The position numbers were made by a program, and so were the translations under genes. The notes under the pieces were generated by a model that made no database searches, was not told where the DNA came from, and saw nothing but the letters and a program-made list of their open reading frames with translations. This document shows, piece after piece, positions 119-38,728 of a DNA stretch of 64,000 nt; the first letter of the stretch is position 1, and each line of letters starts with the position of its first letter. The DNA is taken from contig NZ_JAJQQP010000005.1 of the NCBI RefSeq assembly GCF_028994805.1, positions 310,001 to 374,000 on the forward strand, written 5' to 3'. This stretch comes from Promicromonospora iranensis (GTDB lineage Bacteria > Actinomycetota > Actinomycetes > Actinomycetales > Cellulomonadaceae).

Positions 119-1276
119 TCACGGCGCGCTGGTGGTGCCGGTCTCGCGCGCGGCGTCGCGCCGCCGTCGGACCGGGTCCTGCAGCATGTGGGACTCGATG
201 AGCGTGTGCCGGCGCAGGTAGGTGTTGGCGGTCGCCTGGATCGTGGCGGCGACCGGCAGCGCGAGGAACGCGCCCAGCGCGCCGAAGAGGGCGCCGAAGC
301 CCAGCACGGCGACGAAGCTCACGGCCGGGTTCATCTCCAGGGCACGTGCAGAGACCTTGGGGGAGAAGTACAGGTTCTCCAGCTGTTGGTAGGCGATCAC
401 GAAGGCGAGGACACCGAGCGCCTGGGGCAGGCCCTGGGACGTCAGCGCGACCACGATGGGGAGCGCGCCGCCCAGGTACGTTCCGATCGTCGGGACGAAC
501 TGCGACACCACGCCGACGAACACGGCGAGCGGCAGCGCGTACGGGGTGCGCAGGACGAGCAGGAAGACGAGGGTGAAGGCGCTGGAGAGCGCCGCCAGGA
601 CGATGCGGGAGTTGATGAAGTCCGAGACCTTGACCTGGGTGATCTCCCAGAGGGTCAGGACCTCCTGCTGGCGCTCGGGGGTCAGCCAGCGGCACACCGC
701 CGCCCGGAAGCGCGGGCCGGCCGCGAGCAGGTAGTAGGTGACCAGCAGGATGGTCAGGAGCGCGAAGAGGCCGCCGATCACGGTGGTCCCGAAGACCAGG
801 GCGCCGCTGGCGACGTCGTTGCCGAACGTCGTCAGGATGTCGCGCACCAGGTCGCCGGAGTCCGGGATGACGACGCCGAACCGCTCGGCGGCCAGGTTCT
901 GCACGTCCGCGTAGATGACGGGCACGTTCTCCAGGAGCTGCACGAGCTGCTGGACGAAGAGGTTGCCGAACAGTGCCAGTACCAGCGTGATGGCGCCGAG
1001 GGAGCCGCCGAGGGCGGTGGCCGCGGCGAGGCGGCGGTTCCAGCCCCGGCGCACGCACCAGACGACCACGGGGTCGAGCGCCAGCGTGAGGAAGAAGGCG
1101 ATGAGCAGGTTGACGGCGAGGCCCTGGAGGGTGTCGATCGCGTACCAGCCGAACGCGCCGAGATAGACCGCCACCGCCGCCATGAAGAGCGCCCGGGGGA
1201 GCCACCGTGGCGGACGGCGCGACGTGGGCTCGCCTCGTGCCGGCGCGGTAGTCGACGTGTCGTGTGGAGCTGTCAT
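119..1276 (-). CDS. AI-2E family transporter (PerM/UPF0118)
   Basis: A 385-residue polytopic membrane protein of the AI-2E/PerM family. Members have about eight membrane segments; some export autoinducer-2 or act in Na+/H+ exchange, and most are uncharacterised. Hydrophobic segments occur at about residues 28-80, then a long loop (about 95-190) typical of the family, then closely spaced segments including the glycine/proline-rich stretch V-P-T-I-G-T-Y-L-G-G. The tail is basic and ends T-S-A-P. The ATG at 1276 is chosen because GGGAGG lies just before it; an upstream in-frame ATG at 1330 has no such site. The TCACC-N7-GGTGA palindrome at 1363-1381 lies 87 bases upstream, so it may belong to the membrane-protein regulon of this block. 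Confidence 0.85.
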   Translation of the reverse strand: MTAPHDTSTTAPARGEPTSRRPPRWLPRALFMAAVAVYLGAFGWYAIDTLQGLAVNLLIAFFLTLALDPVVVWCVRRGWNRRLAAATALGGSLGAITLVLALFGNLFVQQLVQLLENVPVIYADVQNLAAERFGVVIPDSGDLVRDILTTFGNDVASGALVFGTTVIGGLFALLTILLVTYYLLAAGPRFRAAVCRWLTPERQQEVLTLWEITQVKVSDFINSRIVLAALSSAFTLVFLLVLRTPYALPLAVFVGVVSQFVPTIGTYLGGALPIVVALTSQGLPQALGVLAFVIAYQQLENLYFSPKVSARALEMNPAVSFVAVLGFGALFGALGAFLALPVAATIQATANTYLRRHTLIESHMLQDPVRRRRDAARETGTTSAP

Positions 1277-1362
1277 GCCCTCGCCTCCCTCGTGTCGGCA
1301 GGGGGCGGCGGTCGGGCCACCCCGCCACACCGGTCAGCCAAGCCCGGGGGAGCCCTGGCATG

Positions 1363-1381
1363 CTCACCTGCTTCGGGTGAA
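1363..1381. promoter_or_regulatory. Candidate operator palindrome, copy 1
   Basis: CTCACCT-GCTTC-GGGTGAA, a 17-bp core TCACC-N7-GGTGA, lies between the LuxR-type gene stop (1431) and the AI-2E permease start (1276). It is one of four close copies in the first 10.4 kb. Here it could also be a weak terminator hairpin, but two other copies sit in divergent promoter regions where no terminator is expected. Confidence 0.5.
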
Positions 1382-1430
1382 GGGCCGGACCAGATCCCCC
1401 GGACGAGACCCGGGACGAGACGGCCCCGGA

Positions 1431-4298
1431 TCAGAGCAGGTGGAAGCTGCGGGCGATCTTCAGGGCCTCGCTGCGGCGGGATGCGGCGAGCTTGGTGTAG
1501 AGGCTCGACACGTGCGTCTTGACGGTGTTCTCCGAGACGAACAGGGCGGCGGCGATGTCCGCGTAGGTGGCGCCCCGGGCCAGCTCGTTGAGGACCTCTC
1601 GTTCGCGCGGGCTGAGGGCCGGCGGGGCGAGGGCCTGGCTGACCTCGTCCAGCTCGCTGGGCGTGGCGGTCATCGACGCGTAGACCGCCGTGACGTCCGG
1701 TTGCCCGGCCCTCGTGGCGGCGAGCTCGTGCAGCCATCTGGTGGCGGGTCGCTTGGTCAGCCGCTGCAGCAGGGTCTCGATGGGCGTGCCCTGGCGGGCC
1801 CAGCCGAAGAACGGCGCGGCGTTCCGGCGGGACTCGGTGACCGCGATCGCCTCGATCAGGCGCTCGTGCGAGCGGGCCGGGTCGCCCAGGGCGTCGAGCA
1901 GCTGCGCCTCGCAGGCCAGGGCGAGCGCGCGGGTGGGCGGCTGCGAGTAGGTGGCGTCCGCGGAGGCCGCCTCGAACGCGGCGACGGCGCCGCGCCGGTC
2001 GCCGTCCCGGTCGGCACGCAGCCCCTGGACGAGCGCCGACTCGCCCACGGCACCGAGCCGGTCGAGGGTGTCGTGCAGGGACTTGAGCGTGTCACGGTCG
2101 CTCGCCAGCGTGGCGACGAACGCCCGCTCGACGAGCAGCGCGACCCGCAGGTGCTCCGGGAGCTGCTCGTCGGTCAGCCGCAGGCACTCGCCGGGGCCGG
2201 AGAGGATGCGCTGTGCCTCGACCACGTTGCCGGCGAGCATCTCCTGCCGGGAGTCCCAGACCCGGAACCAGAAGCGGGTGCACAGGTCACCGCTGTGGTA
2301 CCGGACGCCGGGGAACGGGTCCACGGTGAGCTCGGTGGGCGCGGGCACGTCGAGCAGCCGGGCGAGCAGCCGGGCGAGGTTGGCCCGTGCCGCGACGAAC
2401 CGCACGTTCGTGGCGCCGGGGGCGCGGGCCGCGACGAGGACCTCGCCGGCCAGCTCGACGCACGCGCTCTCCCGCCCCCGCATGAACTGCGTGAAGGCGA
2501 GGTGGCTCAGGGCGCAGGTGCCCAGCGGGGCGAGCCCTTGGCTGCGCGAGAGGCTGACCGCGAGCGTGAGGCTCGCCTCGGCGTCGGTGAGCTCGCCCAG
2601 CCAGTTCTGCGCCGCCCCCAGCTCGTGGGCGAGCACGGGCAGCACCTCGGCGTTCGCCTCGCGCACGGCCGGGCGCGTCTGCGACGCGACGAGCACCCGC
2701 TTCGCGTGGCCGACGGCGGCGTAGGCGGGCTCGAGCCCCAGCGCCACGCGCCACAGCCGGACGCAGGCGACCGTGCCGTCGAGGCCGTCCATGCCCCCGG
2801 GGAGCCAGGCGTGCGACCAGCGGCGCCGAGCGTCCAGGATCCGGTCGCCCCAGTGGCGCGCCCCTTCGACGTCGTCCCGCAGCCAGCAGCCGAGCGCGAT
2901 GGCGAACCAGACGTCGGGCCGGCTCTCGACGACCTCGGGCTCCGCCCGGACGAACTCGGCCACCGCGTCGGGCCCGCACTGGTTCAGCACCATGCGCACG
3001 CCGTCCCGCGCGAGGATGTCGGCGGCCTCGACAGGAGCGCCGACCCGGACGAGCCGGGCGAACGACCTGGACAGGTTCCCGCGTGCCACGTCGAGGCCTA
3101 CTGCCCGGATCACGGTGGCGCGGGCGCGGGCGGCGTCGACGCCCCCTGCGGCGAGGCGCTGCCGGACCACCTCCACCAGGAGGGGGTGCACCCGGAAGCC
3201 GTCCGGTCCGGGTGCGTCGGGCGAGGCGGGTGCGGCGGACGACGCAGGTGGGTCCGGCGAACGGTCGTCCGCCGGGACGACCGGGAGCTCGGCGGTGCGC
3301 GCCTCCAGGTGGTAAGCGTCGCCGGTGCGAAGCACGAGCAGGCCGGTGTCCTCGAGCTCCGTGAGGATCTCGCCCGCGTGGACGTCGTGCGACAGGTGTG
3401 CTGCCGTCGGGACGCTCACCGCGTCCTCGCCGGCGATGCACAGCAGCAGGTGCCGTTGTCGCGGGGTGAGCGTGCTGAAGACCTCGCCCGCCACCCGGTT
3501 GGCGATCGGCTCGGCGTCGGCGGCGAGCAGGCGGGCCGCGGCAGCGGGGTACGGCGTGCCGCGGAGGCCACGGGCCGCGAGGACCGCGGCGGCGCACCAG
3601 CCGTCGGCGTGCCGGGTGATGGCGGCGACCACGTCGGGGTCGTCGGTCCCGGCGTGGTCCGCCACGAGCGACGCGCACTCGGCGTCGCTCAGCCGGAGGA
3701 GGTCTCCGCGCAGGAAGGTGAAGTTGCCGAGGAGCTCGGGGACCAGCCGGGTCAGCGGCAGGGCCCAGCGGCTCAGCAGGAGGACGCGCATGCTGTCGGG
3801 TGCGGCGTTGAGCCGGTCGTCGATGTGCCGCAGCGTCGCGGCCGGGAGCAGGTGGGCGTCGTCGATCACCACCAGGGTGGGCGACAGGGTGGATGACACG
3901 GTGGATGACACGGTGGTGGGCGGCCGGTCCGGGACCGTGGCCGGCACCCGGGCGTCGAGGACGGAACCGAGCTGCTCGGGCGTCCAGGTGTCGTCGGCCC
4001 GCACCCACACGGCACCCGTCGCCCTGGCCGACGCCGTGCAGCGCAGCCATCCGGCCACACCCAGCGTCTTACCGGCCCCCGCCGGGGCCACGACCAGGGT
4101 GACGGAACCCTCGGCCGCCTCGTCCAGCCGTTGCCACAGGCGGGGGCGCGGTACGTAGACGCGCGGCAGGCGTGGCGCGAGGTCGGCGGCGGCCAGCGGG
4201 TGTGTGCTGTCCGCCGGGTCCGGCGCGACCGCGAGCCGGGGAGCTCTGGGCGCGAGGGTCGTCCCGCGCCGTGCGACTGGTATCGGTTCGGGATTCAT
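1431..4298 (-). CDS. LuxR-family transcriptional regulator with N-terminal ATPase (MalT/LAL type)
   Basis: A 955-residue regulator of the large ATP-binding LuxR type: an AAA/STAND ATPase, a helical tetratricopeptide-like middle, and a carboxy-terminal DNA-binding domain. A Walker A motif APAGAGKT is at residues 71-78 and a Walker B VVIDDAH at about 143-149. The last 61 residues are a GerE/LuxR helix-turn-helix (LSPREREVL...SENTVKTHVSSLY). Such proteins are usually switched on by a small inducer in the ATP-bound state. The ATG at 4298 is preceded by GGAGGA. A tandem 12-bp repeat at 3888-3911 gives T-V-S-S-T-V-S-S between the two Walker motifs. Its location among genes carrying a shared palindrome makes it a candidate regulator of them, which is inference only. 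Confidence 0.88.
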   Translation of the reverse strand: MNPEPIPVARRGTTLAPRAPRLAVAPDPADSTHPLAAADLAPRLPRVYVPRPRLWQRLDEAAEGSVTLVVAPAGAGKTLGVAGWLRCTASARATGAVWVRADDTWTPEQLGSVLDARVPATVPDRPPTTVSSTVSSTLSPTLVVIDDAHLLPAATLRHIDDRLNAAPDSMRVLLLSRWALPLTRLVPELLGNFTFLRGDLLRLSDAECASLVADHAGTDDPDVVAAITRHADGWCAAAVLAARGLRGTPYPAAAARLLAADAEPIANRVAGEVFSTLTPRQRHLLLCIAGEDAVSVPTAAHLSHDVHAGEILTELEDTGLLVLRTGDAYHLEARTAELPVVPADDRSPDPPASSAAPASPDAPGPDGFRVHPLLVEVVRQRLAAGGVDAARARATVIRAVGLDVARGNLSRSFARLVRVGAPVEAADILARDGVRMVLNQCGPDAVAEFVRAEPEVVESRPDVWFAIALGCWLRDDVEGARHWGDRILDARRRWSHAWLPGGMDGLDGTVACVRLWRVALGLEPAYAAVGHAKRVLVASQTRPAVREANAEVLPVLAHELGAAQNWLGELTDAEASLTLAVSLSRSQGLAPLGTCALSHLAFTQFMRGRESACVELAGEVLVAARAPGATNVRFVAARANLARLLARLLDVPAPTELTVDPFPGVRYHSGDLCTRFWFRVWDSRQEMLAGNVVEAQRILSGPGECLRLTDEQLPEHLRVALLVERAFVATLASDRDTLKSLHDTLDRLGAVGESALVQGLRADRDGDRRGAVAAFEAASADATYSQPPTRALALACEAQLLDALGDPARSHERLIEAIAVTESRRNAAPFFGWARQGTPIETLLQRLTKRPATRWLHELAATRAGQPDVTAVYASMTATPSELDEVSQALAPPALSPREREVLNELARGATYADIAAALFVSENTVKTHVSSLYTKLAASRRSEALKIARSFHLL
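3888..3911 (+). repeat. 12-bp tandem repeat inside the LuxR-type gene
   Basis: GGTGGATGACAC occurs twice in tandem at 3888-3899 and 3900-3911 and adds four residues (V-S-S-T) per unit to the protein on the minus strand. It is in frame and so length-neutral for reading. It is one of several 12-15 bp in-frame duplications in this window. Confidence 0.8.
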
Positions 4299-4309
4299 AC
4301 CGCGGCGTC

Positions 4310-4328
4310 CTCCACTCGAATGGGTGAA
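4310..4328. promoter_or_regulatory. Weak half-match to the block's palindrome before the LuxR-type gene
   Basis: CTCCACT-CGAAT-GGGTGAA has a perfect right arm (GGGTGAA) at the same spacing as the four better copies, but a poor left arm. It is centred 21 bases before the start codon at 4298. It may be an autoregulatory half-site or chance. Confidence 0.25.
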
Positions 4329-4358
4329 GTGGCGACCGCCCCCTGATCGCCGATGCAT

Positions 4359-4525
4359 GACCGGATAAATCTCACATTGCTGATTACCGTGTATTACGCG
4401 GTCCTCAACAACTTTGCATCAAGAATCGGTCGTGCGCTCGTCGGTCAGGCCGCCGAGAGCCGGGTGTCGCCCATTACTGCCGGTGGAATTCACCCCTTCT
4501 CTCGTGGTTCACGCCGGATCTTCCT
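4359..4525. other. A/T-rich intergenic region upstream of the LuxR-type gene
   Basis: About 170 bases that are clearly richer in A and T than their surroundings and hold no convincing gene. They should contain the promoter of the LuxR-type regulator on the minus strand. I could not assign -35 and -10 boxes with confidence. Confidence 0.5.
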
Positions 4526-4640
4526 GGGCAATAAGTGTGCAAAGTGCCCAGAGAGCGTCGCCAGTACAATTCCAACCAAATGCGCCCATGATTGGCCAGC
4601 GAGGACACCGATTCCCGGCGTGAGCGCCACCGCCCCCACG
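4526..4640 (-). pseudogene. Possible relic of a DUF7144-type membrane protein
   Basis: On the minus strand this stretch can be read without a stop as about 37 residues including G-I-G-V-L-A-G-Q-S-W-A-H and V-G-I-V-L-A-T-L-S. From memory this resembles the late transmembrane part of DUF7144 membrane proteins, where a GxGxLxGQxWAR block precedes VGIxLAxLS. No start codon, no amino-terminal half and no intact tail accompany it. It ends just before the DUF1269 gene stop at 4645 and its base composition is less GC-rich than its neighbours, consistent with decay. It could also be a chance reading. Confidence 0.35.
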
Positions 4641-4644
4641 CGGG

Positions 4645-5142
4645 TCAGTCCTCGCCGAAGACCTCGCGCAGCGCGGCCTCCTGCTCGGTGTTGAGGTTGG
4701 TGAAGATCAGCTCGGGTGCCTCCTGGCCGGCGAAGGCGTCGTGGATCTTGTCCACCACCGCGTCCGACGACATGATGAACAGCGCAGAGGTCCCCGGCGT
4801 GATCTCGTCCCTGACCCGGTTGATGAAGCCGTCGTCGATCCCGACGTCGGTGAGGGCGCCGCTGAGCGCACCGGTCGCCGCACCGATGGCGGCGCCGAGC
4901 AGCGGGACGAAGAAGAGCAGACCGAAGAGCATCCCCCAGAACGAGCCACCGAGGGCTCCCGCGCCGGCGGTCGAGGTGAGCTGGCGGGTCTTCGGCTTCT
5001 TGGCACCTTCCTCCCACCGCACCGTCGCCGCGTCATGGATGGTGACCAGGTTCTCCCTCGAGAGCTGCTGGATGGTCTTCGACGCCGTCTCCGCGCCGTC
5101 CGCGCTCTTGAACTTCCACACGGTCAGTGTTGCCTGAGACAT
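4645..5142 (-). CDS. DUF1269 domain-containing membrane-associated protein
   Basis: A 165-residue protein of the DUF1269 family. The first 60 residues form a mixed alpha/beta ferredoxin-like region (TLTVWKF...). A hydrophobic glycine/alanine-rich segment (A-G-A-G-A-L-G-G to A-L-S-G-A-L) covers about residues 61-95. A charged carboxy-terminal region follows, with the family phrase I-D-D-G-F-I and a tail ending G-E-D. The biochemical role is unknown; these genes often sit beside stress and membrane proteins in actinobacteria. A GGAGCC site lies near the ATG at 5142. It follows the first SulP gene by 95 bases on the same strand, with copy 2 of the block's palindrome in between, so it may be co-transcribed or separately controlled. 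Confidence 0.85.
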   Translation of the reverse strand: MSQATLTVWKFKSADGAETASKTIQQLSRENLVTIHDAATVRWEEGAKKPKTRQLTSTAGAGALGGSFWGMLFGLLFFVPLLGAAIGAATGALSGALTDVGIDDGFINRVRDEITPGTSALFIMSSDAVVDKIHDAFAGQEAPELIFTNLNTEQEAALREVFGED

Positions 5143-5213
5143 GAGTGGCTCCTTCGGTTCACGTTCGGGAGTGGCTTGACGCTGCTACTCCAGCCCGTGG
5201 GCGCGTTCGGCGC

Positions 5214-5232
5214 CTCACCCGTTCCCGGTGAA
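5214..5232. promoter_or_regulatory. Candidate operator palindrome, copy 2
   Basis: CTCACCC-GTTCC-CGGTGAA with the same TCACC-N7-GGTGA core, 72 bases upstream of the DUF1269 start and 6 bases beyond the SulP stop. It could serve as a SulP terminator stem, but sequence and spacing match the copies in divergent promoter regions. Confidence 0.5.
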
Positions 5233-5237
5233 CCTCC

Positions 5238-6935
5238 TCAGGCGGTCTCGTCGCTGTCGTGACCGGCCCGGACGGCCTCGTCGAGCGTGGTGAACAGCGG
5301 TGGCTCGCCCTCCGCACCGACCCGGGCCAGGACGTCACGTACCTGCCCGATTCCCTCGGCGAGCGCCAGGTCGCCGCCGTCGCGTCGGAGGTCACCGCGC
5401 AGCTGGACCAGCATCGCGGCGGCGGTCACGTCGACCGACGGTGTCGCGCGGCCGTCCAGGACCACGAGCCGCAGTCCGGGTTCCTGCGCGGCGAGCTCCC
5501 GGAGGCGGGCACGCACGTACTCGGCGTTCGCGAAGATCAGCGGTCCCTCGACGCGGACCGCGAGCACACCGGGCACCGTCGGGTAGCCGGGGTTGCGTTC
5601 CGCGTCCACCCAGGGGCGGCCGGGCTCGTCGCCGACGGGCGCCAGGACGGTGATGCGCGGACGGGAGCTCCGCGCCAGCAGCAGGATCAGCGAGACGGCG
5701 ATGCCGATGACGAGCCCGGGGAGGGTGTCGAAGATCAGCACCCCCAGCAGGGCGGCACCCGCGGCCATGAAGTCGGCGCGGGCGGTGACCTGGTAGACGT
5801 GCACCAGCCGGCCCGTCCGGACCCGCCACAGGCGGCGCAGCGACCGGACGTCGACCAGCTCGACCACGGCGACCACGACCACGGCGGCCAGCGTCGCCAG
5901 CGGCAGCTGCTCGAAGACCCCGGTCAGGAACAGCAGGGTGAGGATCGTCAGGGCCGCGGCGGTCAGCGCCGAGACCTGGGAGCGGGCGCCGGCGCTCGCG
6001 TTCACCGCGGTCTTGGACAGGCTGCCGTTGACGACCATCCCGGAGAGGACCCCGGACCCGAGGTTGGAGATCCCGAGGCCGACCAGCTCCCGGTTCGGGT
6101 CGACGTCGTAGCCGCGGGTCGCCGCGTAGGTCTTGGCGGCGCCGAGGCCCTCGGCGAAGCCGACGAGCATGAGGCCCACCGCGCCGCCCAGGAGCTCCGT
6201 GAACTGCGGGCCCGTCACGTCGGGCAGCCCGACCCGCGGCAGGCCGGCGTCGATGTGGCCGACGACGGCGAGCCCGCGGTCGCCCAGGCCGAACAGGAGG
6301 GCGGCGCCGATCGCCAGGAGCACCACGACGAGCGAACCCGGCAGGAACGGCATGGTGCGGCGCACGACGACCAGGGCGACCAGGCTCGCCAGGCCGACCA
6401 CGAGGGTGAGCGGGTCGATGTCGCCGAGCTGGCCCAGCAGGGCCCAGGACTTCTCGAAGAAGCTGCCGCGACCGCCCTCGACGCCGATCAGGTCGGGCAC
6501 CTGGCCGATCATGATGGTCAGCGCGAGGCCGATGATGAAGCCCTTGAGCACCGGCTCGGAGATGAAGGCGGCGAGGAAGCCCAGGCGGAGCAGGCCCGCG
6601 ATGATCGCGACGATCCCCGTGGCGAGGGCGAGCGCGGTGGTGAGGGCGACCGGGTCGCCGTCGGCCCCGGCGACGCTCGCGACGATGCCGGCCGAGAGCG
6701 CGGCCGTCGCCGACATGGGCGACACGACGAGCTGGCGGGACGTGCCCGCGATCGCGTAGAGCGCGAGGGCGGGGACCGCCGCGTAGAGGCCGACGACGGG
6801 CGGGACCCCGGCGATGGTGGCGTAGGCGAGCGACTCGGGGACGAGGACGGCCCAGACCGCGAGGCCGGCGATGATGTCGGGGCGCACCGACGTGCGCTGG
6901 TACCCCGAGAAGGACGGGGCGAGGAAGCTGGCCAC
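5238..6935 (-). CDS. SulP family inorganic anion transporter with STAS domain (copy 1)
   Basis: A 565-residue transporter of the SLC26/SulP family, which moves sulfate, bicarbonate or related anions across the cytoplasmic membrane. The amino-terminal family signature (P-D-I-I-A-G-L-A-V-W-A, then P-E-S-L-A-Y-A) is at about residues 17-40. A dozen or so membrane segments follow to about residue 430. A soluble STAS domain, with V-L-D-G-R-A-T-P-S-V-D-V-T, occupies the last 110 residues. The substrate cannot be read from sequence. I choose the GTG at 6935, preceded by GGAGAGG, over the longer reading to 7199, which would cover the divergent promoter. It is divergent from a GAP-family gene with a palindrome between them. 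Confidence 0.87.
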   Translation of the reverse strand: MASFLAPSFSGYQRTSVRPDIIAGLAVWAVLVPESLAYATIAGVPPVVGLYAAVPALALYAIAGTSRQLVVSPMSATAALSAGIVASVAGADGDPVALTTALALATGIVAIIAGLLRLGFLAAFISEPVLKGFIIGLALTIMIGQVPDLIGVEGGRGSFFEKSWALLGQLGDIDPLTLVVGLASLVALVVVRRTMPFLPGSLVVVLLAIGAALLFGLGDRGLAVVGHIDAGLPRVGLPDVTGPQFTELLGGAVGLMLVGFAEGLGAAKTYAATRGYDVDPNRELVGLGISNLGSGVLSGMVVNGSLSKTAVNASAGARSQVSALTAAALTILTLLFLTGVFEQLPLATLAAVVVVAVVELVDVRSLRRLWRVRTGRLVHVYQVTARADFMAAGAALLGVLIFDTLPGLVIGIAVSLILLLARSSRPRITVLAPVGDEPGRPWVDAERNPGYPTVPGVLAVRVEGPLIFANAEYVRARLRELAAQEPGLRLVVLDGRATPSVDVTAAAMLVQLRGDLRRDGGDLALAEGIGQVRDVLARVGAEGEPPLFTTLDEAVRAGHDSDETA

Positions 6936-7016
6936 GAGGTTTCCTCTCCGGGGGTCGGCGGTCCGAGGGGTAGGGCTGGTCAGCGCCGACCGTAGGCGCG
7001 CGGCCTCGGGGCGCAG

Positions 7017-7035
7017 GTCACCCGGAAGGGGTGAC
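7017..7035. promoter_or_regulatory. Candidate operator palindrome, copy 3 (perfect arms)
   Basis: GTCACCC-GGAAG-GGGTGAC is a perfect 7-bp inverted repeat with a 5-base spacer, placed between the divergent SulP (start 6935) and GAP-family (start 7069) genes. The arms are identical to copy 4 at 10374-10392, which lies in the same kind of divergent region. Confidence 0.6.
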
Positions 7036-7068
7036 GCGGACGGCGCCGCCGTGGGCGACAGTCCGCCT

Positions 7069-7758
7069 ATGGCGGAGCTGCTGGTCCAGCTGGTGCCCGA
7101 GATCCTCGGGCTCGCCGCGACACCCGCGGCGATCGTGGCGTGCCTCCTGCTGCTGGGGTCGCACCGTCCGTACCGCAACGTCACGGTGTTCGGCGGCACG
7201 GTGCTGGTGGTCTACGGGGCGCTGGGTGCGGCGGCCCTGGCCGTCGGCCGGGGCGCGGGTGCCCACGACACCGATGACCCCGCGACGGTCCGGGGCTGGA
7301 TCGGGCTGGTCGTCGGCGTGCTGTTCCTGGTCGGCGGTGCCGTGGCGGTCGTCCGGCGGCCGCCGCCGGCGGAGGGTGCCCAGGGGGCGGAGGACCAGCT
7401 GCCGGCGTGGGCGCGCCGGCTGGCCTCCCCGACGCCGCTCACCCTCGCCGGTGTCGCGACGGTGCTGGCGCTCCTGAACCCCAACGTGGCGATCTTCGTC
7501 TCCGGGGTGGGCTCCGTGGTCACCGCCGACCTCCCGCTGGGCCAGCAGGCCGTCGGGGTCCTCGTGCTCGTGCTCGCCAGCGTGCTGGACTACGTGCTGC
7601 CCACGGTGTTCTACGCCGTCACCGGCCTGCCCGGCCGCCGCCAGCTGCACGCGGTGCGCGACTGGCTGCTCCGGCACGACCGGGCGATCGGCGCCGCCGT
7701 GCTCCTCGTCTTCGGCGCGATGTTCACGATCCGCGGCCTGACCCAGCTCCTCACCTGA
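7069..7758 (+). CDS. GAP-family membrane protein (Sap-like, copy 1)
   Basis: A 229-residue protein with about six membrane segments, resembling the GAP/Sap family (sulfolipid-1-addressing protein) known in mycobacteria for glycolipid or peptidoglycolipid export to the cell surface. It starts M-A-E-L-L-V-Q-L-V-P, with a central helix pair, a charged loop (P-P-P-A-E-G-A-Q-G-A-E-D) and the family stretch A-L-L-N-P-N-V at about residues 140-150. The export role in this organism is inference. The ATG at 7069 is chosen because the hydrophobic domain begins there; longer readings run into the divergent SulP gene. No strong ribosome binding site is visible. It pairs with the SulP gene, an arrangement repeated at 8.3-11.1 kb. 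Confidence 0.8.
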   Translation: MAELLVQLVPEILGLAATPAAIVACLLLLGSHRPYRNVTVFGGTVLVVYGALGAAALAVGRGAGAHDTDDPATVRGWIGLVVGVLFLVGGAVAVVRRPPPAEGAQGAEDQLPAWARRLASPTPLTLAGVATVLALLNPNVAIFVSGVGSVVTADLPLGQQAVGVLVLVLASVLDYVLPTVFYAVTGLPGRRQLHAVRDWLLRHDRAIGAAVLLVFGAMFTIRGLTQLLT

Positions 7759-7787
7759 CCTCCCTGGGTTGGCCCAACCATGAAGGG

Positions 7788-8336
7788 TCAGGTGTGGCGG
7801 CCGCGCCGCTGGACGGCGTACCCGACGCCGGCGAGCAGCGCCCAGACCACCAGGACCAGGACGACGCCGGCGGTCGACGCAGGCCGCCACAGGTCCCCGG
7901 CGACGTCGGCCCAGAGGCGCCCGACGCCGGAGAGCACCAGCGCCGCGCCGCCGAACGCCGTGCCCCAGACGAGGAACGGGCGCTCGAACCGGCGAGCCAG
8001 GAACGCGCAGAGGATCGCCACGGCGGGGACCACGATGAGGACGAGGAGCACGTCGGCGCTGCCGCCCTGGACGAGCACGTACAGCTTGGCCCCGATCACC
8101 GCACCGACGCACAGGCCGCCGACGAAGAACAGGAACCGCGCCATCAGCAGCGTCAGCGTGAAGGCCAGGACGGCCCCGCCGAGACCGATCAGCAGCGCCG
8201 TGCCGGTGTCGGCGTCGAGGGCCTCGGCGAGCGTCCACGCGACGCCGAAGCCCGCGGTCAGGACCGCGAGCCGGACGGAGAGCGAGCCGGCCAGGCACAG
8301 CACCAGGCCGACGACGATTGCGGCGAGTGCGGACAT
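7788..8336 (-). CDS. DUF4203/TM198-like membrane protein
   Basis: A 182-residue, almost entirely hydrophobic protein with about six or seven membrane segments and glycine-rich turns (G-L-G-G-A-V-L-A; V-G-G-L-C-V-G-A-V-I-G-A-K). This pattern resembles the DUF4203/TMEM198 fold, whose function is unknown. The ATG at 8336 overlaps the stop of the upstream SulP gene as TGATG, so the two are probably translated together. If so, it falls under the same control as SulP copy 2. It converges on the GAP-family gene with a 29-base gap that contains a short GGTTGG/CCAACC hairpin. Confidence 0.7.
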   Translation of the reverse strand: MSALAAIVVGLVLCLAGSLSVRLAVLTAGFGVAWTLAEALDADTGTALLIGLGGAVLAFTLTLLMARFLFFVGGLCVGAVIGAKLYVLVQGGSADVLLVLIVVPAVAILCAFLARRFERPFLVWGTAFGGAALVLSGVGRLWADVAGDLWRPASTAGVVLVLVVWALLAGVGYAVQRRGRHT

Positions 8337-10216
8337 CAGGTCCCTCCGTCAGGGTCAAGGTCAGGGTCAGGGTCGGGCGACGGGATGTCGCCGGCGGGCC
8401 GTACGTGGTGCACGGGGCCGTGACCGTCCCGGCCGGCGGTGGCCGTGAGCGCGGCCCGGGTGGACTCGCCGAGCCTCGGCGTCGCGGGCACCACCCGGAC
8501 GCCCGCGAGCCGCTGGACCGTTCCGTCGCGCTCCCAGCCGGCGGCCAGTGCGGGGTCGACCCCGGTGAGGTAGAGCGTGCCGTTCGCCTCGTCGAGGAGG
8601 TGGGCGTAGTCGCCGACGACCTTGAGGAACGTCGCGCCGAGGGTGGTGCGGCCGCGCAGGCGCAGGACCACCACCGGGCCGTCCACCCGACCGTTCTGTC
8701 CGGCGGACGCGGAACCGTTCTCCGCGCCGGCCGGCGCCGGGAGGTGGCGCTGCAGCGTCCGGGTGCCCGCGTAGAACAGCGAGCCGTACGCGTCCAGGAC
8801 GACGGTCTGGCCGGCGGTCACGGTCTGCGGCGGGCGGGTCTCGACGAACCCGCCCGCGGCGTCGGGCTTCAGGCGCACCACGCGCAGGTCGAGGGCCTCC
8901 TGGTTCAGCTGCATGATGAGGGAGGCGATGACGCCCACGCCGACGGCCTGGGCGACGGGGAGCACGAGGACCGCCGCGAAGGTGGACCCCATCGCCAGGA
9001 CGGAGATCCGGCCCGCACGGGCCACGGCCAGGAGCTCCCGGGGCTTGAGCGCGCCGACGCCCGCGTAGATGAGCACCGCGGCGAGCGTCGGCATCGCGAC
9101 CATGCCCACCACGCCGGAGAACGCGAGGAGGATGACCCCCATCCACAGGCCGGACCAGATGGCCGCCCAGCGGCTCGCCGCGCCGGCCGCCAGGTTCAGC
9201 GCCGTCTGCCCCACGGACCCACCGACGGGCTGGCCGCCGAACAGCCCGGCGGCCACGTTGGCGACGCCCTGCGCGGTGAAGTCCCGGCTGGTCGACGACC
9301 GGGAGCCGTCCGTGTTCGGGACGGCCTCGGCGACTCCGGCGCCCTGGATCAGCAGGATGGCGGCCACCGCCGCCGCACCGCCGACCAGCTCGGTGCTGAA
9401 CAAGCTCAGGTCCGGGAGCGCGAGGCCCGGCAGTCCCCGGGGCACCGTGCCGGTGTCGTCGACGGACGCCACGGTCGTGGCCCCCAGGACCACCACACCG
9501 ACGGTCGGTACCAGCAGCGCGACCAGCGAGCTCACGATCGACCAGCGCGTCAGGCCGAGCAGCACCAGGGTCGCCAGGGCAGTACCGCCGCAGATCGCGG
9601 ACGCGACGTCGACGGCGCCCAGGTGGCTGACCACGTACCAGGCCTTGGCGACGGACAGGGAGCCCTCCGCGTCCACGCCGAAAAGGACGGGCAGCTGGCC
9701 GAGCACCATGTTGACCGCGACGCCGGAGAGGAAGCCGAGCATGACCGAGTAGGAGACGAACCGGATGTACCTGCTCAGGCGCAGGAGCGCAGCGACGATC
9801 ATCAGCCCGCCCGCCAGCAGGGTCAGGAGCACCATCGCGTCGGACCGCTCGGCCTCCTCGTAGGTCGCGAGCGCGGAGCCGGCCGCCAGGGCTGCGGCAC
9901 TCGTGGTCGTGACCACCATGAGCCTCGTCGAGCTCATGAAGCCGCCCGCCACCGGCCCGACGAACGACGCGTAGAGCCCGTGCGCAGGATTGACGCCGGC
10001 GAGGACGCTCGCCGCCATGCCGTCCGGCACGCTCGAGATCGCACCCGGCAGCCCGGCGACGATGTCCTGGCGCAGATGTCGCCGGCGGGGCAGCACGTCG
10101 GCGGTCCCCAGCTTCAGCCGTCGTCCGGCACGCTGCGCCGTCTGACGTATCTGCGCACCGAACAACGCCCCCAGGCCGCTGCCCGGCCCGTCACCCTTCG
10201 ATCCGTTGGCCGTCAT
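8336..10216 (-). CDS. SulP family inorganic anion transporter with STAS domain (copy 2)
   Basis: A 626-residue SLC26/SulP-type transporter, divergent in sequence from copy 1. Its signature (D-I-V-A-G-L-P-G-A-I-S-S-V-P-D-G-M-A) is at about residues 50-68. Membrane segments run to about residue 440, and a STAS-like domain with V-V-V-L-R-L-R-G-R-T-T-L-G covers about 500-580. The tail is an acidic Asp-Pro repeat encoded by four AGGGTC-type hexamers at 8351-8374. The ATG at 10216 is used. The stop overlaps the next gene by one base. It is divergent from a second GAP-family gene at 10465, giving a duplicated SulP/GAP module. The anion carried is unknown. Confidence 0.85.
   Translation of the reverse strand: MTANGSKGDGPGSGLGALFGAQIRQTAQRAGRRLKLGTADVLPRRRHLRQDIVAGLPGAISSVPDGMAASVLAGVNPAHGLYASFVGPVAGGFMSSTRLMVVTTTSAAALAAGSALATYEEAERSDAMVLLTLLAGGLMIVAALLRLSRYIRFVSYSVMLGFLSGVAVNMVLGQLPVLFGVDAEGSLSVAKAWYVVSHLGAVDVASAICGGTALATLVLLGLTRWSIVSSLVALLVPTVGVVVLGATTVASVDDTGTVPRGLPGLALPDLSLFSTELVGGAAAVAAILLIQGAGVAEAVPNTDGSRSSTSRDFTAQGVANVAAGLFGGQPVGGSVGQTALNLAAGAASRWAAIWSGLWMGVILLAFSGVVGMVAMPTLAAVLIYAGVGALKPRELLAVARAGRISVLAMGSTFAAVLVLPVAQAVGVGVIASLIMQLNQEALDLRVVRLKPDAAGGFVETRPPQTVTAGQTVVLDAYGSLFYAGTRTLQRHLPAPAGAENGSASAGQNGRVDGPVVVLRLRGRTTLGATFLKVVGDYAHLLDEANGTLYLTGVDPALAAGWERDGTVQRLAGVRVVPATPRLGESTRAALTATAGRDGHGPVHHVRPAGDIPSPDPDPDLDPDGGT
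8351..8374 (+). repeat. Hexamer repeat at the SulP copy 2 carboxy-terminus
   Basis: Four AGGGTC-type hexamers (one is AAGGTC) in tandem encode alternating Asp-Pro in the last residues of the transporter on the minus strand. This looks like replication slippage in a tolerant tail. Confidence 0.75.
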
Positions 10217-10373
10217 CGCGGTGCACTCGTCTCCGGCGTGATCAGGTGATCTCGACGAGAGCGGTGAGGCCGAGGTGCGGGGCCCTCGTGATCGCTCGTC
10301 TCATGGTCAAGCTCCTTCTCGTCGAGGGCACAGGGGATCCCGCCCCATCGTCGGCAGCCGCACGTCCGGACGG

Positions 10374-10392
10374 GTCACCCTGTTCGGGTGAC
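10374..10392. promoter_or_regulatory. Candidate operator palindrome, copy 4 (perfect arms)
   Basis: GTCACCC-TGTTC-GGGTGAC lies between SulP copy 2 (start 10216) and GAP-family copy 2 (start 10465). Both arms are identical to copy 3 at the same 5-base spacing; only the spacer differs. Confidence 0.6.
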
Positions 10393-10464
10393 GCCTCCCG
10401 GCACGGCCCGGTCCTAGAGTCGGCGGGACGGGTCGTCAGACCTTTCCTGACGGAGGTGAGGACC

Positions 10465-11136
10465 GTGGGCGCCGCGATCGGTCAGTCGCTGCCGCTGGCG
10501 GTGGGCGTGCTCGTGAGCCCGCTGCCGATCGTCGCGGTGGTGCTCATGCTCGTCAGCGAGCGGGCCCGGTCCAACGCGCTCGCCTTCGTGGCCGGCTGGT
10601 TCCTGGCTGTCCTCGCCGTGGTCGGCGTCGTCGCCCTGGTCGCCGGCTCCGCCGTGTCCGACGACGACGGGCCGGCCGCCTGGACGGGCTGGCTCAAGCT
10701 GGTCCTCGGCGTTCTGCTGCTGCTCCTCGCCGTGCGCCAGTGGCGGGCCCGGCCACGGGGTGCCACCGAACCGCCCCCGCCGAGGTGGATGGCGGCGATC
10801 GACCGGTTCACGCCGCCGAGGTCCGCAGGACTCGGCGTCCTGCTGGGCGCCGTCAACCCGAAGAACCTGCTCCTGGTCGTGTCCGGCGGCACCGCGATCG
10901 CGGCTGCGGATCCCGGTGACACCGGCGCGACGGCGCTCGCCGCGCTCGTGTTCGCCCTGGTGGCCAGCGCCGGCGTCGTCGCGCCGGTCGTTCTCTACTT
11001 CGCGACGGGCGACCGGGCCGCCGGGGTCCTCGACGAGCTGAGGTCGTGGATGGTCCGCAACAACGCGGCGATCATGGCCGTCCTGCTGCTGGTGCTCGCG
11101 ACGAAGATGCTCGGGGACGGCATCTCCGTCCTGTGA
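10465..11136 (+). CDS. GAP-family membrane protein (Sap-like, copy 2)
   Basis: A 223-residue membrane protein with about six hydrophobic segments, related in length and layout to the GAP-family gene at 7069. Family features include V-S-P-L-P-I-V-A-V-V-L-M-L near residues 15-27 and G-A-V-N-P-K-N-L-L-L at about 130-140. In mycobacteria such proteins help deliver surface lipids; here the role is unknown. The GTG at 10465 is preceded by GGAGGTGAG at 10452-10460, a near-perfect ribosome binding site, which decides the start. A tandem duplication of GCATCTCCGTCCTGTG spans the stop codon region (11120-11152). Confidence 0.8.
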   Translation: MGAAIGQSLPLAVGVLVSPLPIVAVVLMLVSERARSNALAFVAGWFLAVLAVVGVVALVAGSAVSDDDGPAAWTGWLKLVLGVLLLLLAVRQWRARPRGATEPPPPRWMAAIDRFTPPRSAGLGVLLGAVNPKNLLLVVSGGTAIAAADPGDTGATALAALVFALVASAGVVAPVVLYFATGDRAAGVLDELRSWMVRNNAAIMAVLLLVLATKMLGDGISVL

Positions 11137-36913: not shown

Positions 36914-38728
36914 AGCGGACGGCGGCGGTGGGTCCGGTGATCGGGTGCCGCCCGTAGCGGAGAGGCTTCCGGCCGACTCGCCGGTTTCACTGGCTTTCCG
37001 GCGTTCGACTTCGATGGGTTCGGGCAGGGTGATGCGGTGTCCGCGGGCGTCGGTGAAGGCCCACCCGGTCTCGATCAGGGCGCCGGGCACGGTGGCGCTC
37101 GTGGTGGTGCCGGTGGTGCTGTCGGCTGTGGTGGTGCCCGTGGTGGTGGGTTTGCCCGTCCAGTGCATGGTGATGCCTCGGGTGTCGACGAGCTGGTGGT
37201 GGTACCAGCACAACAACGCACTGTTGGACACGGAGGTGTCCCCGCCGTGAGCCCAGTGAGTGATCGCGTGGTGCACCTCGCACCGTGATGGTGGTTGATC
37301 ACACCCGGGGAAGACGCAGTGCCGGTCTCTGGCGATCACCGCTCGCCGCATCTGCCCGCTCACCGTCCTCTGCGCCCGGCCGACGTCCAGGACGGCGCCG
37401 TCGGGTCCGAACACGACCCGGGTGACCGCACTGTCGCAGGCCAGACGGCGCAGCAGTGCTCGTGGGGCGCGGTCACCGGTCTCGGTGAACACGGGGCCAC
37501 CACCGGACAGCAGTCCGGACACCGTCAGGGCGCCCACTGGGCCTCTAGTTGCTGGGCCTGCGGCTGGCGGGTCTGCGTTCGTCGGAGCCAGACCCGTGCC
37601 CGTTGCACCTGCACCTGCATCTGTGCTTGTGCTCGGTGCTCCTGTGCCCTTCGTGCGGCCTGGTGCGGTTTGGCCGCAGGTCAGGCACAGGCCTTCGCGG
37701 GTGCGGGTGGCCTGGGCGACCAGCTCGGTCCAGGACACCGTGACATTCAGGTGGGGTGGGATCGCCGCCCCCGGAGAGGCCTGGTTGGTGTCCAACACCA
37801 CCCGGGCCACATCTGCCAGACCCTGTGCGCGGCGTTGTGTCGACGTGCGGGTGTCTTCCGCTGAGGGGGCGCCGAGGATTGCGTTGATCGCCGCGGTGAC
37901 CAGGAGGCTGTGTTCGTCGGTCAGGAAGCCTGCGAGGTGGTAGCCGCCGAAGGTTTTGGCCAGGTCGAGGAACTCGCCCAGGGCTGCTTTGTCGTCGTCG
38001 GTGTCGTCGGTGTCGGGGTCGGTGATCGTCGCGAACCGGCGTGCCACGATCCGGAACTGGTCCGCGTTCAACGAACCGGCCTCGCGCAGGACCAGGCCCT
38101 CACCCGTGACCAGCGTGCCCTCGGTGACCGCGTCCTCCAACACTCGCGTGATGAGCTGACGGGTGTGCTCACCGTCGGGGTCCTCGACCGGGTCGGGGAA
38201 GTCCACGGGCACGGTCTGCACGAACGCCTCCGGGGTGGTCCGCTCACCCGTGCGGGTGTCGATCAGCCAGGCCAACGCGTCGGTGCGGGTCTCGCTGGTG
38301 GGGGCGACCTTGGTCATCACACGGGCATGGTCCGCACCGAGGGTTCCCGCGACCAGGCCTTCCCGGGTCCCGGGCAGCGCGGTCGCGAGGCGGCGGGCCA
38401 TCGTCATGTCCTTGCCCGCTGTCGTCGCCGAGATGCCTTCTCGGATCCGCAGCCAGGTGGTGAACGCGCGGGCCATCCCGCCTGAGCGCCAGGACCCGTC
38501 CGCTTCGATCCTCGACAGCAGGGTGTACCGGACTCCGTCGAGGCGGCCGATCATCCGGCGGATCCGGGTGTGTGCCTCCATCAGCCGGCCCACGGTCGGG
38601 GTGTCCCACCCGTCCAACACCTCCGGATCGGTCAGGACCGCGAGCTCGTCCATCACATTCTCGAACCGGGCCAGCGTCTCCTCGATCGACTCGGCACTGG
38701 GCAGGCCACCGGCTGGCACGCCGTTCAT
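36902..38728 (-). CDS. DUF222 and HNH-endonuclease domain protein (13E12 repeat family)
   Basis: A 608-residue protein of the 13E12 family, common in multiple copies in actinobacteria. An all-helical DUF222 domain fills about residues 10-330. A low-complexity Thr/Ala/Gly/Pro linker follows (about 355-400). An HNH nuclease domain lies near 445-500, with zinc-type cysteines (C-V-F-P-G-C), the V-H-H-A-I histidines, N-S-A-L-L-C and W-Y-H-H. Its biological role is unknown. The start is uncertain: ATG 38728, GTG 38740, or ATG 38815. A GATAAT -10 box at 38792-38797 on the minus strand would exclude 38815. No flanking repeats suggest it is mobile here. Confidence 0.78.
   Translation of the reverse strand: MNGVPAGGLPSAESIEETLARFENVMDELAVLTDPEVLDGWDTPTVGRLMEAHTRIRRMIGRLDGVRYTLLSRIEADGSWRSGGMARAFTTWLRIREGISATTAGKDMTMARRLATALPGTREGLVAGTLGADHARVMTKVAPTSETRTDALAWLIDTRTGERTTPEAFVQTVPVDFPDPVEDPDGEHTRQLITRVLEDAVTEGTLVTGEGLVLREAGSLNADQFRIVARRFATITDPDTDDTDDDKAALGEFLDLAKTFGGYHLAGFLTDEHSLLVTAAINAILGAPSAEDTRTSTQRRAQGLADVARVVLDTNQASPGAAIPPHLNVTVSWTELVAQATRTREGLCLTCGQTAPGRTKGTGAPSTSTDAGAGATGTGLAPTNADPPAAGPATRGPVGALTVSGLLSGGGPVFTETGDRAPRALLRRLACDSAVTRVVFGPDGAVLDVGRAQRTVSGQMRRAVIARDRHCVFPGCDQPPSRCEVHHAITHWAHGGDTSVSNSALLCWYHHQLVDTRGITMHWTGKPTTTGTTTADSTTGTTTSATVPGALIETGWAFTDARGHRITLPEPIEVERRKASETGESAGSLSATGGTRSPDPPPPSAEAA

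Follow-up and report, generated by a model that had tools for sequence, protein, structure and literature searches.

Which protein reads the palindrome that recurs before membrane-protein genes of Promicromonospora iranensis, and what does it do there? The DNA considered here is a 64,000-nucleotide stretch of contig NZ_JAJQQP010000005.1 (the window), in which copies of TCACC-N7-GGTGA lie before genes for an AI-2E transporter, a DUF1269 protein, SulP transporters and GAP family membrane proteins. A 955-amino-acid LuxR-type regulator of the LAL/MalT type (the LAL) is encoded among them (Table 1). Comparative sequence analysis predicts that the palindrome is an operator lying within the promoters of a multi-gene regulon, with conservation across several families. 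The explanation favored as a whole, at a probability of roughly 0.75, is that a GerE-type regulator, most likely the LAL, activates this regulon through that operator.

Copies of the palindrome and their clustering

A sequence-only reading of the window had reported four copies before membrane-protein genes. All four are present, its coordinates including one flanking base on each side of the 17-bp core used as the strict search pattern. The expected number is 0.15, and none of 100 dinucleotide shuffles reaches four. The copies at 7017 and 10374 have identical 7-base arms (GTCACCC and GGGTGAC) and stand in divergent promoter regions, just as that reading described. Its statement that the spacer always contains TTC is not general: the copies at 300045 and 308894, to the left of the window, have the spacers CGCAACG and CGAGGTG.

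The genome (5.84 Mb, 31 contigs) holds the pattern at 17 places and a reversed control pattern at 2. Seven of the 17 fall within 25.4 kb of the window's contig, C27:294992 to 320391, a clustering with a binomial P of about 5.5e-13, or 2.5e-10 once the number of stretches is allowed for. They comprise the window's four copies and three to the left, at C27:294992, 300045 and 308894 (window -15008, -9955 and -1106). One of these three lies between putP and the gene for a 470-amino-acid membrane protein, which is followed by genes for a sulfatase, a formylglycine-generating-enzyme (FGE)-type protein and a HAD phosphatase; the other two precede genes for a DUF6069 membrane protein and a small putative lipoprotein. 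All seven copies are intergenic once one gene call opposite GAP1 (317018-317677, minus strand) is set aside as spurious, the Pfam-supported GAP gene lying on the plus strand. Gene calls in these counts come from a simple GC3-based caller and are rough. The cluster also contains a gene for a 2407-amino-acid secreted-looking repeat protein (C27:300712-307935), left of the window.

The sequence-only reading proposed that the sites should lie between genes rather than inside them, and 143 of 155 distinct sites are found outside predicted genes, in DNA of which the same rough caller counts 86% as coding. With the first five bases set by the search, base 6 of the half-site is C at a frequency of 0.87 and base 7 is G at 0.67; the flanks show no comparable base preference.

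Some matches of the pattern are false. ARAGORN identifies TCACCTTGCCAAGGTGA as the anticodon arm of tRNA-Gly(GCC) in a Brachybacterium locus (L097:8372 and 8867). The same sequence occurs in P. iranensis at C31:87392 and 90642, 2 of the 10 copies outside the cluster, where it probably marks the same anticodon arm. TCACCTTGCCAAGGTGA is to be excluded from scans. Copies in tRNA-Gly arms are excluded here from the DUF1269-neighborhood tables, the by-site hexamer counts and the 155-site set, and are retained in the 41-copy and 99-direction counts below. Two further genome-wide observations concern related patterns: TCACC-N6-GGTGA occurs at 47 places against 2 for its control, and TCACCGAGACCGGTGA, both strands counted, is present at six places, one of them in the window (37473-37488).

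Conservation before orthologous genes

At E<=1e-40 the LAL is found in 16 of 200 family genomes, P. iranensis included, and the comparison covers the surroundings of 15 LAL places from 13 of the 15 remaining genomes (G028 and G128 are left out). The genera represented among the family's LAL loci include Promicromonospora, Myceligenerans, Puerhibacterium, Actinotalea and Cellulomonas. Nine Promicromonospora loci from eight genomes were scored for a strict palindrome within 250 bases before each homolog. The site precedes DUF1269 in 9/10, SulP1-type genes in 7/7 (two of them only 33-35% alike), SulP2 in 2/2, GAP1 in 2/2 and GAP2 in 4/4, so that the check on orthologous promoters proposed in the sequence-only reading comes out in its favor. 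It is also found before the lipoprotein gene (5/7), putP (2/2), the DUF6069 gene mem157 (2/2), TM198 (3/5), AI-2E (2/4), mem471 (2/4) and DUF6325 (1/4); both AI-2E genes that lack it have a SulP-type gene with the site directly upstream. Sulfatase-like genes carry it in 3/9 cases, none of them among the six close ones, and within 250 bases no site precedes FGE (0/5), HAD (0/6), mem228 (0/3), SHOCT (0/4) or IlvD (0/2).

Spacers tend to be kept by position. The 17-mer TCACCCGTTCCCGGTGA precedes DUF1269 in five of the nine loci and does so in Nocardioides sp. Iso805N (L087) too. TCACCTGCTTCGGGTGA precedes AI-2E in P. iranensis (G006) and, in genome G105, a SulP-type gene that itself precedes AI-2E. 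The palindrome alone was rejected as a marker: at least one TCACCC-N5-GGGTGA occurs in 112 of the 200 family genomes, many with G+C-only spacers, and it is position and the spacing to a -10-like element that discriminate.

A -10-like hexamer at a fixed distance

Measured outward from the site center to each facing gene, with orthologous sites counted repeatedly, a hexamer NANNNT starts at +31/+32 in 65.7% of 99 directions, against a mean of 3.9% and a maximum of 13.1% elsewhere in the same sequences under the same three-offset test. For loci outside the family the figure is 71.7% of 46 directions against 4.1%. Counted by site, the hexamer is present on at least one side of 25/35 Promicromonospora sites (7 on both), 3/5 sites of Myceligenerans and Puerhibacterium, 30/37 sites of far loci (9 on both) and 25/28 sites of Cellulomonas-like loci (none on both). 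Control centers displaced by 15-40 bases have it in 353 of 4576 cases (7.7%).

In P. iranensis, 5/7 clustered sites pass the strict hexamer test, as do 2/8 of the other copies tested, namely an intergenic copy on contig C12 and one inside a predicted gene. Outside the cluster, two operator copies stand on contig C12, at 289535 and 290811 (L019:8536 and 9812), one with a mismatch and both with correctly spaced hexamers; the genes they precede, for a flavin amine oxidase and a DUF998 membrane protein, may also belong to the regulon.

With the hexamer taken to span -12 to -7, a start 31-32 bases from the center places the center of the site at about -43/-44, which would fit a class II activator. 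The site overlaps the -35 region at a fixed distance from the -10-like element, as class II promoters require of an activator site, and class II activation is the most likely mode given this spacing. For GAP1 the transcript would start at about the ATG and the message would be leaderless. The same geometry covers the -35 region, and a repressor sitting at -43 could block it until a signal releases the protein. This is quite unlikely: repressor sites usually vary in position, MalT is an activator, and a constant 31-32 bases is what an activator touching the polymerase requires. BldM of Streptomyces venezuelae, whose half-site is compared below, likewise activates its targets according to PMC4125116.

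The LAL and its upstream region

The regulator has a GerE domain (PF00196, E=3e-16) at residues 894-948 of 955, a Walker-A-like APAGAGKT and the motif LVVIDDAH. A profile built from 14 of its relatives matches residues 17-346, the N-terminal part, of the MalT structure 8bob at E=4.3e-11; the N-terminal domain itself gives no Pfam match at E<=0.001. By its size, its C-terminal GerE helix-turn-helix (HTH) and its MalT-related N-terminal ATPase part, the protein is classed from its sequence as a LAL/MalT-type regulator. Classing this linked regulator as a BldM-type receiver protein was rejected, as the Pfam scan finds no receiver domain in it.

The sequence-only reading also noted a half-match before this gene. 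Of nine aligned Promicromonospora upstream regions, two keep the half-site intact, while in the other seven it has lost 1-2 bases or is altered, on which ground it was rejected as an autoregulatory site in this genus; what is conserved is the stretch immediately before the start codon. In five wider loci (L083, L085, L087, L089 and L100) the promoter of the LAL gene does carry the site. Between the LuxR and DUF1269 genes (window 4300-4640), an extra stretch found in relatives is mostly missing in P. iranensis; it appears to be the end of a gene for a small membrane protein. Another Promicromonospora genome (G097:C1, L056-L059) carries LAL clusters at two separate places, each with operators, and the recognition helices of their LALs differ.

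Co-occurrence in wider relatives

The wider set, drawn from 50 loci returned, comprises 25 loci that hold a LAL relative and come from neither Promicromonospora nor Myceligenerans (L083-L109 except L086 and L108; 513 kb); Nocardioides and Ornithinimicrobium are among the genera with sites. It contains 41 copies of the pattern, 39 without the two tRNA-Gly arms, with at least one copy in 15/25 loci, whereas 19 other permuted arms average 0.53 copies with a maximum of 2. The gap matters as well: 41 copies at gap 7 compare with 4 at gap 6 and 6 at gap 8. Sixteen loci sharing only an HTH contain no copies in 262 kb, a weak control in that 7/16 come from other phyla.

More abundant at gap 7 in the same loci are the G+C-rich arms CGGCG (73), CGCCG (66) and CGTCG (52), which leave TCACC fourth of 1024 arms and probably reflect codon composition. 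Together with the many family genomes that hold a copy, often with a G+C-only spacer, and the two C31 copies that match a tRNA arm, this abundance could be taken to mean that the palindrome is a terminator, an RNA element or a chance GC palindrome. Such an origin is very improbable, since the sites precede genes and also stand between divergent genes, permuted arms are nearly absent and the distance to the hexamer is fixed. The sequence-only reading had likewise argued against a terminator.

A class-wide draw of 296 genomes bears on the co-occurrence of operator and LAL that the sequence-only reading proposed to examine. The LAL is present in 6 genomes, all of which have the operator with the spaced hexamer (8, 11, 6, 4, 3 and 4 hits), compared with at least one hit in 63 of the other 290 (P=1.4e-4); the reversed control matches in 6/296. 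Genomes without this LAL reach up to 19 hits, mainly in family f26. Three f26 clusters (L250-L251, L252 and L253) share SulP, GAP, DUF1269, DUF6325, mem157 and mem471, and FGE and SHOCT each occur in at least two of them. A LAL-sized open reading frame (ORF) is present in each of the six f26 loci opened (L250, L252-L255 and L259), which were picked for having sites; against the A1 model its N-terminal part scores E 4e-18 to 2e-28. Nine site-picked loci (L250-L256, L259 and L260) yield a GerE ORF of at least 600 amino acids in seven; L251 continues L250, and L260 has none. Cellulomonas-like loci have such an ORF in 11/16, and the N-terminal parts of these ORFs go unrecognized by the model. One f26 stretch (G363:C9:128024-145424; L250 and L251) has 13 strict operators in ~17.4 kb beside a LAL, nearly one per transcription unit.

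Neighborhoods of DUF1269 genes show the same association. In a case-control design in which 17 of 80 neighborhoods were picked for having the site, it is present in 13/20 with a LAL-type ORF and 7/60 without (P=9e-6). L156-L171 and L235 were opened mainly for sites and L257, L258 and L261-L263 for the LAL, which biases LAL counts there; L172-L175 are DUF1269 places without a nearby site, and L176-L234 are a selection from the DUF1269 match list. The site-bearing places G167:C11 and G183:C124 were left out, and L172-L234 are therefore poor in sites.

On balance, these loci point to a regulon of the class Actinomycetes in which MalT-like ATPase activators would use BldM-type half-sites at 17 bp to control recurring transport, sulfatase and membrane targets. 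Its target set, held with the same restrained confidence, would include SulP, GAP, AI-2E, DUF1269, DUF6325, DUF6069 and SHOCT, with a site before nearly every unit in some genomes.

Several observations weigh against the LAL-driven regulon. Two of the four window sites, those before AI-2E and DUF1269, have no strict -10 hexamer, TTGGCT and TGGAGT occupying the position. The LAL gene of Promicromonospora has no strict site in the 250 bases preceding it (0/9), and Myceligenerans indicum (G037) has a LAL (59%) and no strict site in 34 kb. TCACCC-N5-GGGTGA counts favor the LAL, at 7, 8, 1, 4, 3, 5, 6, 2 and 4 in nine Promicromonospora genomes with the LAL and 0, 1, 0 and 1 in four without it (P=0.005), but the comparison is confounded, as the latter four also have no DUF1269 match and the whole cluster may therefore come and go together. 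In the wider set the strict site is missing from 10/25 loci, some of them short (L088, L090, L092, L093, L095, L098, L099, L103, L106 and L109). Within 250 bases it precedes just 5/27 DUF1269 and 6/26 LuxR matches in 23 wider loci, which indicates that targets differ from those in Promicromonospora. In the 63 class genomes above the element is present and no LAL is found at E<=1e-40, and 5/16 Cellulomonas-like loci have no GerE ORF of at least 600 amino acids. Among the 63 DUF1269 neighborhoods that were not site-picked, the site is found in 2/9 with a LAL-type ORF and 1/54 without (P=0.05); in the single LAL-less exception, a GerE ORF lies close to the edge of the contig.

Comparison with known systems

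A GerE-type activator with dyad operators is a known kind of system, and BldM, which carries a LuxR/GerE-type DNA-binding domain, provides the closest operator. PMC4125116 describes BldM as an orphan response regulator of development that binds the 16-bp palindrome TCACcCgnncGgGTGA, interpreted by its authors as homodimer binding, with TCACcCg as the half-site of its Group I operator. The half-site TCACCCG is thus common to both; the BldM Group I site has 16 bp with two free central bases, whereas the present site has 17 bp and three. The linked regulator differs too, being of the LAL/MalT type with transport and membrane genes as targets. The sequence-only reading had known no described operator of this sequence, which must now be qualified: the half-site is that of BldM, while the BldM spacer, by that account, is one base shorter. 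Assignment to the BldM Group I regulon was rejected on spacing, from the gap 7 and gap 6 counts in the 25 LAL loci.

The common half-site supports a GerE-type reader in general. The reader of a real operator could then be a different GerE-type protein, either a BldM-like orphan response regulator or another regulator of the NarL type, with the LAL a mere member of the cluster; the LAL HTH is similar to GerE domains found in response regulators, and class genomes carrying the element without a LAL fit this alternative as well. It is nonetheless unlikely, given that the BldM spacing is one base off and that LAL-type genes sit in the clusters across families, some with the site in their own promoter. 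Spacing of 17 bp, location and co-occurrence favor the LAL, which is predicted to be the probable reader of the operator, and the sequence-only reading's candidate binder is likely the right one.

The LAL resembles MalT/LAL regulators in its size near 900 amino acids, N-terminal part, Walker-A-like motif and C-terminal GerE HTH. MalT binds asymmetric repeated boxes in maltose promoters, unlike the single symmetric sites found here at one fixed position in many promoters. In class II promoters of the NarL/DevR type a GerE domain reads a dyad near -35 with the -10 element downstream; the arrangement is the same, whereas half-site sequence and regulator type differ. Literature searches, which mostly left out subscription papers, returned no description of this regulon, no paper joining two of DUF6325, DUF1269, SHOCT, GAP family protein and LuxR, and none on DUF1269 with Actinobacteria.

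Proposed mechanism and targets

TCACCYG-N3-CRGGTGA would be an operator built into promoters. A GerE-type regulator, most likely the 955-amino-acid LAL, would set one DNA-binding domain on each half-site in place of a -35 element and recruit RNA polymerase in the manner of a class II activator. Because the site is symmetric, a single copy could serve both genes of a divergent pair. MalT senses a small ligand together with ATP, and by analogy the LAL would respond to a signal of this kind.

The sequence-only reading joined six genes into one candidate regulon; the operator they have in common is supported, and the regulon appears larger than six genes. In the window its predicted members are the SulP, GAP and AI-2E transporters and DUF1269, and to the left PutP, the DUF6069 membrane protein and the small putative lipoprotein. 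A further predicted unit would run from the 470-amino-acid membrane protein gene through the sulfatase and FGE-type genes to the HAD phosphatase.

Table 1. Operators, -10-like hexamers and neighboring genes in the window
Feature	Position	Strand	Basis
AI-2E family transporter, candidate target, ATG at 1276	119..1276	-	Pfam PF01594 E=1.3e-55 for 119-1273
-10-like hexamer TTGGCT, begins 31 bases from center	1336..1341	-	last-base T kept, second-base A not; no strict NANNNT
Predicted operator TCACCTGCTTCGGGTGA before AI-2E gene	1364..1380	.	pattern search
LAL/MalT-type LuxR regulator, 955 amino acids, candidate binder	1431..4298	-	GerE PF00196; MalT profile match
DUF1269 protein, candidate target, start 5142	4645..5142	-	PF06897 E=1.4e-36
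-10-like hexamer TGGAGT, begins 31 bases from center	5187..5192	-	no strict NANNNT
Predicted operator TCACCCGTTCCCGGTGA before DUF1269	5215..5231	.	pattern search; kept in relatives
SulP transporter with STAS domain (SulP1), candidate target	5238..6935	-	PF00916, PF01740
-10-like TACGGT for SulP1	6989..6994	-	strict hexamer test
Predicted operator TCACCCGGAAGGGGTGA, common to divergent SulP1/GAP1	7018..7034	.	pattern search
-10-like GACAGT for GAP1	7057..7062	+	strict hexamer test
GAP (Sap/SfLAP) family membrane protein, copy 1 (GAP1)	7069..7758	+	PF11139 E=1.4e-27
TM7S3/TM198-like membrane protein, adjoins SulP2, same direction	7788..8336	-	PF13886 E=2.5e-6, under curated cut-off
SulP transporter, copy 2 (SulP2), candidate target	8336..10216	-	PF00916 E=6.2e-52
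-10-like GACGAT for SulP2	10347..10352	-	strict hexamer test
Predicted operator TCACCCTGTTCGGGTGA, common to divergent SulP2/GAP2	10375..10391	.	pattern search
-10-like TAGAGT for GAP2	10415..10420	+	strict hexamer test
GAP (Sap/SfLAP) family membrane protein, copy 2 (GAP2)	10465..11136	+	PF11139 E=4.1e-46

Biological implications

The list of targets suggests a role in ion or anion transport or in envelope homeostasis. Poorly understood families, among them DUF1269, GAP, AI-2E, SulP, DUF6069 and their neighbors, become one predicted regulon with an operator, a promoter position and a candidate regulator. The comparison with BldM further suggests that GerE-type regulators of different architecture may share the half-site TCACCCG and be distinguishable by a single base of spacing.

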